45,451 nt of DNA, taken from NCBI GenBank assembly GCA_013153055.1, contig JAADFE010000071.1:1-45451 (forward strand). Direction: 5' to 3'. Within the stretch, counting starts at the first letter, position 1. Each line of letters opens with the position of its first letter. The stretch is from Campylobacterota bacterium. Lineage in GTDB: Bacteria > Campylobacterota > Campylobacteria > Campylobacterales > Sulfurovaceae. Below, piece after piece: positions 40,052-44,202 of the stretch. Below the pieces are notes generated by a model. It made no database searches. It was not told the DNA's origin and saw only the letters and a program-made list of their open reading frames with translations. The translations under genes were made by a program, and so were the position numbers.

Positions 40052-41227
40052 ATGAATATTCATGAATATCAGGCAAAAGAGATATTTGCTAAATATGGTG
40101 TACCAACACCTAGAGGTATTATTGCACACAGCGTAGAAGAGGCTGTAGAAAACGCAAAAAAACTTGGTGGAAATATTTGGGTAGTAAAGGCTCAAATCCA
40201 TGCAGGTGGTAGAGGACTTGGTGGTGGAGTAAAACTTGCTAAGTCAATAGAAGAGGTAGAGAAACTTGCAGGTGAGATTTTAGGTATGACACTTGTAACT
40301 CACCAGACAGGACCAGAGGGAAAATTGGTTCAAAAAGTTTATATCGAAGAGGGAGCTGATATTCAAGATGAGCTTTATCTATCTGTTGTTCTTGATAGAG
40401 CAAAAGAGATGCCAATTATTATGGCTTCAACAGAGGGTGGTATGGATATTGAGACTGTGGCAGAAGAGACTCCTGAAAAAATCATCAAAGTAGCTGTTGA
40501 CCCTGCTATTGGTTTCCAAGGTTTTCATGGTAGAGAGCTTGTATTTGGACTAGGTATCACTGATAAGAATGAGCAAAAAAATATGATTCAGTTTGCATCA
40601 AAACTATATAAACTATATATGGATAATGATGCAGAGATGATTGAGATAAACCCACTTATCAAAACAGGAGCAGGAGAGTTCCTAGCACTTGATGGAAAGA
40701 TGGGATTTGATGATAGTGCGTTGTTTAGACACCCTGATATTGAGGCGATGAGAGATATAAGTGAAGAGGACCCAGATGAGAGAGAGGCTTCTCAATATGG
40801 ATTAAGCTATATCGCTCTTGATGGTGAGATTGGTTGTATGGTAAATGGTGCTGGTCTTGCTATGGGTACAATGGATACTATCAACTATATGGGTGGAACA
40901 CCTGCAAACTTCCTAGATGTTGGTGGAACAGCAAATGCTCAAACTGTTGCAAAAGGTTTTGAGATAATCCTCAAAAATCCAAATGTAAAAGCTATATTTG
41001 TAAATATATTTGGTGGAATTGTAAGATGTGATAGAATTGCAAACGGTATCTTAGAGGCTACAAAAATGGTAGATGTAAATGTACCAGTAGTTGTAAGACT
41101 TGATGGAACAAATGCACCAGAGGCTGCAGAAATTCTTAGAAATGCAAATATCGAAAATATCATTACAGCAACAGATTTAGGTGACGGAGCTAAAAAAGCA
41201 GTTGAAGCAGCAAAGGGAGGTAAATAA
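40052..41227 (+). CDS. sucC: Succinyl-CoA ligase (ADP-forming) beta subunit
   Basis: SucC with SucD interconverts succinate, CoA and ATP with succinyl-CoA; in Campylobacterota the reaction serves the oxidative or the reductive TCA cycle. The 391-residue protein has the ATP-grasp N-terminus ([42 protein letters not shown]), [29 protein letters not shown], and the CoA-ligase domain ([29 protein letters not shown]). Length is standard. Its stop overlaps the sucD start (TAATG). Confidence 0.97.
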
Positions 41228-42099
41228 TGAGTATTTTAGTAAATAAAGATACAAAAGTAATTGTTCAAGGTTTCACAGGTAGTGAGGGAACATTTCACTC
41301 TACTCAATGTTTGGATTATGGGACACAAATTGTTGGAGGTGTAACTCCAGGTAAAGGTGGTCAAGAGCATCTTGGAAAACCAGTATTTAATACAGTAAAA
41401 GAGGCAGTAAAAGCAACAGGTGCTACAGTATCTATGGTATTTGTTCCACCTAGATTTGTAGCTGATGCTGTTATGGAAGCTGCTGATGCAGGAATAGAAC
41501 TAGCTGTAATCATTACAGAGGGTGCTCCTGTAAAAGATATGCAGATGGCAAAAGCGTATGCTGTTAAAAATGGTATGAAGACTATTGGACCAAACTGTCC
41601 AGGTATTATCACAGCTGGTGAGTGTAAGATTGGAATTATGCCAGGTATGATTTTCAAAAAAGGAAATGTAGGGCTTATTTCAAAATCAGGAACTCTAACT
41701 TATGAAGGTGCAAACCAAGTAGTAAATGAGGGTTATGGTATCTCAACTGCAGTAGGAATTGGTGGAGACCCAATTATTGGACTAAGCTATAAGCAACTTC
41801 TTCCAATGTTTGAAGCAGACCCAGAGACTGAAGCTATTGTTATGATTGGTGAGATTGGTGGAGACTTGGAAATTCAAGCAGCAAAACTAATCAAAGAGCA
41901 AATCACAAAACCAGTAGTAGCATTTATCGCTGGACAAACTGCTCCAAAAGGAAAAAGAATGGGTCACGCTGGTGCTATTATTAGTGGTAGTGCTGGAACT
42001 GCAAAAGAGAAAATGGATGCACTAGAGGCTGTGGGAGTAAAAGTAGTTGTATCTCCAGCTGAAATCGGTAAAGCTGTCAAAGAGGTTTTATCTAAATAA
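41227..42099 (+). CDS. sucD: Succinyl-CoA ligase alpha subunit
   Basis: The 290-residue SucD has the CoA-binding N-terminus ([40 protein letters not shown]), [20 protein letters not shown], and the phospho-histidine H247 in [12 protein letters not shown]. Length is normal. It is translationally coupled with sucC, and a strong hairpin follows 8 nt after its stop. Confidence 0.97.
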
Positions 42100-42221: not shown

Positions 42222-42967
42222 ATGGAATATAGAAGATTTTTTTTAAATAACTACAGTTATTTTTTGACTATAGTAACATATAAGTACCTGTCCATATCTA
42301 ATTTCATGTTTTAACAATAAGAAAAAGGTACAGATACAAGGCAGATTTTTGCAGGACTAGCCATAGCTAATTCAAAAAAATCTAACGCTGTAGATGTGCT
42401 TTTTTCTTATTGCCCGTAGGGTGAAATGATTTTGCCTCATCTTTGCATCTAAATATACTCGAATTAGCTATGGCTAGTCCTTCGTATATTTATGTACAAA
42501 TCTAAGGCAAACTCATTTCATTAAAACATGAAATTAGATATGGACAGGTACTTAGACGCAAACCTATTCTCATAGAGAATATAGAGTCATTGCGTATAGC
42601 TTTTAAATTGAGCAGAGCAAAATATGGCTATACAATAGATGCTATAGTTATATTGCCAGACCATCTTCATATGATTATTACGCCCAAAGTTGCTACAGAT
42701 TATCCAAAGATTGTTGCCCATATCAAACGAACTTTTATTTATGGACTACCACAAGAGTTAAAATATAATGGAAAATTAGAAATAAGTAATGCAAAATACA
42801 ATCGAAGACATGGAGGTATATGGCAAGAGCGTTTCTATGAACACACCATCAGAGATGAAAAAGATTGGCAAAAGAGTATGGAATACATAAAATATAACCC
42901 CATAAAGCATAATCTTGTAGAAGATTTAAATGATTGGCAATATTCATCATTTTATAAAAAATCGTAG
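42222..42967 (+). pseudogene. REP-associated tyrosine transposase (RAYT, TnpA-REP), split by a palindromic element
   Basis: The N-terminal part starts at ATG 42222 (MEYRRFFLNNYSYFLTIVTY) and stops inside an inserted element. The rest resumes at 42555 as RRKPILIENIESLRIAF, with the HUH motif (ILPDHLHMII), GGIWQERFYEHTIRDEKDW, and the YIKYNPIKHNLV block that holds the catalytic Tyr region. Removing 42283-42552 and one TA joins the two parts as VTYRRKPIL and gives an intact 157-residue RAYT of normal length. The stop codon TAG is contributed by the first REP. A TTG at 42590 could still start a truncated product, but it would lack the N-terminal strand. The gene is probably inactive. Confidence 0.88.
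42283..42552. mobile_element. 270-bp non-autonomous palindromic element (MITE) flanked by TA
   Basis: Terminal inverted repeats of 32 bp, perfect, begin AGTACCTGTCC; the inverted identity extends through the flanking TA on both sides (42281-42314 against 42521-42554). The direct TA at 42281-42282 and 42553-42554 is the expected target duplication of IS630/Tc1-mariner transposases. No ORF for a transposase is inside. Internal inverted pairs: B 42315-42326 with 42401-42412, C 42353-42373 with 42461-42481 (21 bp, perfect), D 42422-42437 with 42505-42520 (one mismatch). They are interleaved (order A B C B' D C' D' A'). Confidence 0.88.
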
Positions 42968-43362
42968 GTCGGACTGCTCCCTGTCCGACAAAAAATCGCA
43001 TAAAATAAAAATCAAATATCATTAAAAATATTAGCATAAAAGACACCCATTGAACGATAAAATATCATTTCATGATGGGTTTGTATTTTGTAGGTCGGAC
43101 TGCCCTCTGTCCGACAAAAAATCGCACAAAATAAAAATTAAATATCATTAAAAATATTAGCATAAAAAACACCTATTGAACGATAAAATATCATTTTATG
43201 ATGGGTTTGTATTTTGTAGGTCGGACTGCCCTCTGTCCGACAAAAATTCGCATAAAATAAAAATCAAATATCATTAAAAATATTAGCATAAAAGACACCC
43301 ATTGAACGATGGAATATTATTTCATCATAGGCTTGTGTCGGACAGAGGGCAGTCCGACCTAC
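42964..43362. repeat. REP array: three units with 126-bp period closed by an inverted REP
   Basis: The REP is GTAG followed by stem GTCGGAC, an 8-nt loop and GTCCGAC. It starts at 42964, 43090 and 43216, exactly 126 bp apart, and an inverted copy ends at 43362. The last unit (43216-43362) is a full 147-bp palindrome-like BIME with inverted REPs at both ends. The GTAG tetranucleotide plus hairpin is the classic RAYT target form. The TAG of the first REP is the RAYT stop codon. The rest of 43363-43444 holds only the promoter of the next gene. Confidence 0.92.
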
Positions 43363-44055: not shown

Positions 44056-44202
44056 GTAGGTCGGACTGCCCTCTGTCCGACAAAAAATCGCATAAAATAA
44101 AAACTAAATATCGTTAAAAAGATTAGCATAAAAAACATCCATTGAACAATGGAATTTTATTTCATGATGGGTTTGTGTCGGACAGAGGGCAGTCCGACCT
44201 AC
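44056..44202. repeat. 147-bp BIME (inverted REP pair)
   Basis: A complete copy of the unit seen at 43216-43362: the same GTAG plus GTCGGAC/GTCCGAC REP at the left end and its inverse at the right end, with a related 93-bp core. It lies between the nuclease-like gene and the WD40 gene, 10 bp from the latter's stop. The 128 bp before it (43928-44055) shows no gene I can support. Confidence 0.9.

Follow-up and report, generated by a model that had tools for sequence, protein, structure and literature searches.

Interruption of a RAYT gene in a Sulfurovum-type bacterium by a probable IS630-type MITE with a shared structural interior

Introduction

In a marine, Sulfurovum-type bacterium, the gene for a RAYT transposase is split by 270 bp of non-coding sequence that lies between two TA dinucleotides. 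The locus thus raises the question of what this sequence is, what brought it there, and whether its loss could give the gene back. The window, that is, the whole stretch of 45,451 nucleotides that was analyzed, has its site on contig C128 of an assembly of 1.91 Mb that is 84% complete.

The interrupted gene

The RAYT gene starts with the ATG at 42222 and is split after residue 20. Reading on past VTY enters the element as KYLSISNFMF*, with a stop 10 codons further on. The locus is made up of the following parts:

41227-42099: sucD, upstream of the RAYT gene
42222-42282, + strand: 5′ part of the RAYT gene, MEYRRFFLNNYSYFLTIVTY plus 1 nt, with the host TA included
42281-42282, no strand: left TA of the target duplication, from the frame test (22 of 22 copies are TA-flanked)
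42283-42552, no strand: putative MITE, 270 bp, non-coding, with IS630-type ends AGTACCTGTCC...GGACAGGTACT
42283-42314, + strand: left terminal inverted repeat, outer stem P1, 100% complementary to 42521-42552
42315-42412, + strand: hairpin P2, with the tip GGACTAGCCATAGCTAATTC at 42354-42373
42413-42421, no strand: central mini-hairpin CCCGTAGGG of a four-way junction
42422-42520, - strand: hairpin P3, with the same tip as P2, inverted, at 42461-42480
42521-42552, - strand: right terminal inverted repeat
42553-42554, no strand: right TA of the target duplication, from the frame test
42555-42967, + strand: 3′ part of the RAYT gene, with the HUH motif DHLHMI and the catalytic-Tyr region YIKYNPIKH; its stop codon TAG overlaps the first REP

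As TA is self-complementary, the flanks alone cannot show which TA belongs to the host, and it is the reading frame that decides the duplication. Deletions of 266-278 bp were placed after 42282, and the RAYT frame was reopened only by those congruent to 272 mod 3. Removal of 272 bp, which comprise the element and one TA, gives VTYRRKPIL and a protein of 157 aa, and the frame stays closed when 270 or 274 bp are removed. The joined frame scores 149 bits against the NCBIfam model NF047646 REP_Tyr_transpos (cut-off 80), over model positions 1-146 of 146, and the 3′ part alone scores 25.7 bits against PF01797 (cut-off 23). In an alignment with nine uninterrupted RAYTs of the genus, H57, H59, and Y131 are invariant, the HUH motif and the catalytic Tyr thus being present, and there is no gap where VTY meets RRKP; therefore, exactly one TA is host sequence. 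These results bear out the original prediction as to the identity of the gene, the loss of its frame through the insertion, and the intact VTYRRKP protein of 157 residues that is obtained when the element and one TA are deleted. The description of the element itself (270 bp, perfect 32-bp inverted ends, TA flanks, and a break after VTY) was correct to the base.

An insert that forms an ancient part of the locus, which the original prediction had set against its own reading, was seen at none of the RAYT loci of relatives that were compared. The same RAYT allele with an empty site was not found among them either, and the empty site is thus derived from homologous proteins rather than from the same locus. 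The only other syntenic sucD locus compared (L179:868-1070) belongs to a relative whose sucD is 90% identical; there, RAYT is missing after sucD, and the stretch contains another kind of element, which has one hairpin, the tip known from the window element, and TAGACTTCTT ends. In the window, the interrupted RAYT is presumably inactive and should yield no working enzyme, because the remaining frame lacks the conserved N-terminal stretch and is separated from the native start. The insertion would be recent relative to the decay of the gene, since the remainder of the frame is intact.

Structure of the element

The 32 nt of each terminal repeat, which match at 32 of 32 positions, form together with the flanking TA a perfect inverted repeat of 34 nt (42281-42314 and 42521-42554). 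Folded as single-stranded DNA, this 274-nt stretch reaches -74.6 kcal/mol, against -20.9 +/- 3.3 for shuffles (z -16.3). The ends of this type of element are designated AGTACCTG and AGTACC, and its core hairpins carry GGACTAGC. No ORF of at least 50 aa lies within the element. In an Rfam search of the locus, there was no match above the gathering score and no intron match; plant and animal miRNA-type matches below the threshold were judged to be palindrome noise.

Copies of the element and relationship to IS630

Full-length copies with the same ends, of 273-274 bp and 81-88% identity, are found in four genomes of the same genus (G002, G010, G013, and G024). All 22 copies compared, full or shortened, have a TA on each side; they are those of these four genomes, one copy on a genome contig (L079), and the shortened ones. 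The ends of the other copies fall at the same bases as in the window, and none of them interrupts a recognizable gene.

The likely source of mobility is indicated by another genome, G018, in which an IS of 1,060 bp, with TAAGTACCT...AGGTACTTA as its boundaries, extends from TAAGTACCTAACC to TTAGTTAGGTACTTA. Its transposase belongs to IS630 (NF033545, 144 bits; cut-off 100), with a frame that is broken in the available sequence, where the N-terminal part lies in another frame. Nine IS630 genes of the genus were examined, and in eight of them AGGTACTTA, the reverse complement of the window element's own end, follows a few bases past the stop codon. Compared with the ends of this IS in G018, the window element agrees at only 16-17 of 24 positions, nine of which are the identical first nine (TAAGTACCT), and the G002 copies agree at 19-21 of 24. 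The search for other copies and for an IS630 transposase that the original prediction had called for thus gave a divided answer: the bacterium's own assembly (G000, 84% complete) holds neither a second full-length copy nor an IS630 transposase of matching type, but both kinds of sequence occur in related genomes. A missing partner does not disqualify a MITE, because a MITE can outlive its partner. In effect, the element has every tested feature of an IS630-type MITE but one, namely a partner within its own assembly, and this feature is a non-defining one. The assignment to the TA-specific IS630 class, already made in the original prediction, is therefore strong, as it draws on the ends, the target, and the type of partner in sister genomes.

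Altogether, the insert is very probably a non-autonomous IS630-type MITE that entered the RAYT gene at a TA within its N-terminal part and duplicated this TA. An IS630 transposase that recognizes TAAGTACCT ends would have acted in trans from an element such as the 1,060-bp IS of G018, its own source being missing from this assembly. This enzyme would bind the ends of the outer stem and move the element into a TA by cut-and-paste.

In the family to which the window element belongs, the usual course of decay is internal deletion, which leaves stubs of 34-67 bp with both ends retained. Several loci of G024 have an identical CATATG deletion junction in their stubs, which suggests that the stubs themselves move. 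Core-less palindromic stubs of 34-54 bp with TAs were also recorded at L240-L247 and L255-L258; several share a deletion junction across loci, and these stubs are probably mobile in their own right. Judging by such sequences, the ends alone may carry mobility. The possibility of reading the short palindromes as empty core sites was rejected where remnants of the interior persist, for instance in L212, where P3 stem sequence is left at the deletion junction.

A shared interior behind different ends

Elements were gathered by the hairpin tip GGACTAGCNNNNGCTAATTC, and 74 complete ones were delimited through their inverted ends (L002-L006 and L067-L184). When folded singly, 73 of these 74 give one four-way-junction plan: an outer stem of about 32 bp, a hairpin of about 98 nt, nine nt with the sequence CCCNNNGGG or a close variant, another hairpin, again of about 98 nt, whose tip is inverted, and the other side of the outer stem. 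Most are 264-279 bp long. The tip occurs together with about 10 kinds of ends, in Campylobacterota, in Gammaproteobacteria including Thiodiazotropha, and in one Saprospiraceae MAG (Bacteroidota); as the tip was the search key, its conservation across families partly reflects sample selection, whereas the fold, the length, and the central joint were not keyed. Single exact tip matches in Paenibacillus, Clostridium, Wolfebacteria, and one gammaproteobacterial contig look like chance and were excluded. In addition to the mismatched tip, both types of hairpin often have an AGAT/AGAT internal loop, that is, tandem G-A mismatches.

Pairing is maintained despite sequence change. In the outer stem, both sides have changed in 13 of 34 pairs, and 99.1% of cells pair. 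In the window's own family, both-side changes are found in 30 of 113 pairs, and the share of cells that pair is 94.9%; shuffles give 89.0 +/- 0.5%, and slid partners give 33-43%. For the whole structure, none of 500 shuffles reaches the observed measures. The mismatches in the outer stem comprise 18 G-T and 21 A-C and thus show no G-T bias, in a count that used automatic orientation and omitted the 19 of the 74 elements whose orientation is ambiguous. Since these mismatches are even and the two hairpins are mirror images, a function of the fold as an RNA transcribed from one strand, which was also considered, is disfavored.

The ends differ not only in sequence but also in the target duplication that goes with them. 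The ACCTGAGTTCG-ended elements, here called the ACCTGAG sister family, are flanked by 5-bp TNNNA direct repeats in 15 of 20 cases, against a mean of 1.8 and a maximum of 9 of 20 when right flanks were permuted (20,000 permutations), although AT-rich flanks limit the precision of this call. Most of these repeats are not self-complementary and are thus real duplications, and their length differs from that of TA. One interior behind different ends and duplications implies at least two different transposition reactions.

The sister family has 173 ends in G023, a genome of 1.7 Mb. Among the matches listed, most of these sit at contig ends, so the repeats probably broke this assembly, and none form end pairs at IS-like spacing. 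Many JACXUN010000xxx contigs also end within an element. No autonomous element carrying the core was found when long-distance inverted repeats were sought at all loci. One candidate from Muiribacterium (L093:291-1338), in which 96-bp inverted repeats 1,048 bp apart enclose one core tip, was discarded, as it contains a cytidine-deaminase-like ORF and no transposase.

The chances are about even that the interior is a structural module carried by MITEs that differ in their transposase ends and in their target duplications, TA in one case and 5-bp TNNNA in the other. It could be a modular or hyper-parasitic unit with exchangeable ends, or selection could act on some DNA-level function that the module itself has; in this view, the RAYT locus would be one of its insertions. 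The interior may be kept for a two-fold symmetric role at the DNA level or by simple hitch-hiking with end exchange.

REP sequences beside the gene

The REP sequence of this genome is GTAGGTCGGACTGCCCTCTGTCCGAC, and six GTAG-tagged copies (GTAGGTCGGACTG...) flank the RAYT gene within 1.3 kb. Those listed here include two REPIN-like pairs:

42964-42989, + strand: REP copy 1, with 2 mismatches; its GTAG, at 42964-42967, overlaps the TAG with which RAYT ends
43090-43115, + strand: REP copy 2, inside a 126-bp tandem unit
43216-43362, no strand: REPIN-like pair 1, 147 bp, with a + strand REP at 43216-43241 and a - strand REP at 43337-43362
44056-44202, no strand: REPIN-like pair 2, 135 of 147 positions identical to pair 1

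The assembly holds seven REP copies in all (allowing up to 3 mismatches), and with six of them beside RAYT, the spread of REPs in this genome is small. The idea that this RAYT spreads the neighboring REPs is therefore weak: REPs do adjoin the gene, but only one of the seven copies lies elsewhere in the assembly.

Alternative explanations

The original prediction went further and proposed a natural reversible switch of REP mobility. It is true that removal of 272 bp gives back an intact protein and that the perfect 32-bp ends could favor slippage. Nevertheless, it is extremely unlikely that precise excision brings back RAYT and REP mobility at a frequency that counts. Reversion would need the loss of exactly 272 bp, which is not to be expected from the transposase: in known cases of IS630-family cleavage, two nucleotides of the transposon stay behind at each end, as in the studied case of ISY100, where the cut is made two nucleotides inside the 5′ ends and excision is not precise (PMC2170065). 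Such an exact loss might, in principle only, come about by replication slippage between the TAs. In addition, few REPs lie outside the RAYT locus. Given the imprecise chemistry, an assembly with neither the enzyme nor a second full copy, and a family that decays by internal deletion with both ends retained, the switch is not supported.

Mobilization by a RAYT or another HUH enzyme, in which the element would travel like a REPIN, as two mismatched hairpins, and the TA flanks would be mere ends, is very unlikely. The hairpin tips are indeed inverted, mismatched, and conserved among family members. Nevertheless, these tips (GCAGGACTAGC...GCTAATTC) lack the GTAG foot that tags REPINs, the frame test needs one TA to be host sequence, core-less stubs lie between TAs at many loci, and the ends match those of IS630. 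Moreover, the sister family makes 5-bp duplications, and HUH Y1 enzymes are known to produce no target duplications. The strong conserved fold might also suggest that the element is removed or bypassed at the RNA level, as an intron-like sequence or by translational bypass, such that RAYT is still made. This has next to negligible probability, as an intron match is missing in Rfam and the outer stem lacks the bias of G-T over A-C expected of RNA pairing (18 versus 21). The other copies examined sit outside recognizable genes, and thus nothing selects for splicing.

Significance and comparison with known systems

As an event, the insertion is ordinary, since MITEs that interrupt genes are known, including in sulfur bacteria (PMC4853749). 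It is one more case of a mobile element disabling another. Of greater interest is the element itself, and what is more novel is its shared-core family, a description of which was not found in the limited set of literature searched. MITEs are expected to retain their ends and lose their interior; here, by contrast, the shape of the interior is retained while ends and target duplications vary. If this is borne out, the interior owes its conservation to something besides the transposase, and Sulfurovum-type genomes with many copies, such as G023, allow tests.

Some known elements resemble this family in part. In the Bacillus cereus group, bcr1 is a short repeat whose secondary structure is strong and conserved and whose AT-rich target duplication measures 5 bp. 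Likened by description and not by sequence, it is similar in its conserved structure, and its duplication can be compared with that of the ACCTGAG sister family, but the host and the ends are different; bcr1 has been counted as a MITE (PMC3733652). REPINs, or REP doublets mobilized by RAYTs, likewise have two conserved imperfect hairpins in inverted orientation (PMC3116915, PMC3733652). In contrast to them, the window element lacks the GTAG/CGTC foot tag (PMC3733652), measures 270 bp, and has IS630-type ends with a TA duplication.

In the sulfur bacterium Candidatus Thiomargarita nelsonii, MITEs interrupt genes at hupL and in the dsrA intron (PMC4853749); both are compared here by description and not by sequence. 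The dsrA-intron MITE is similar to the window element in that it is TATA-ended and discussed as IS630-like, whereas the hupL MITE differs in its 10-bp direct repeat and 19-bp inverted repeat (PMC4853749). Finally, the IS630-derived or similar MITEs Correia/NEMIS, RUP, ERIC, and Nezha are, like the element described here, short, non-coding, and TA-flanked, with IS630-like inverted ends, and are found in or near genes. Unlike them, this element has as its interior a four-way junction of fixed length with two inverted, mismatched hairpins, which it has in common with elements that bear other ends.
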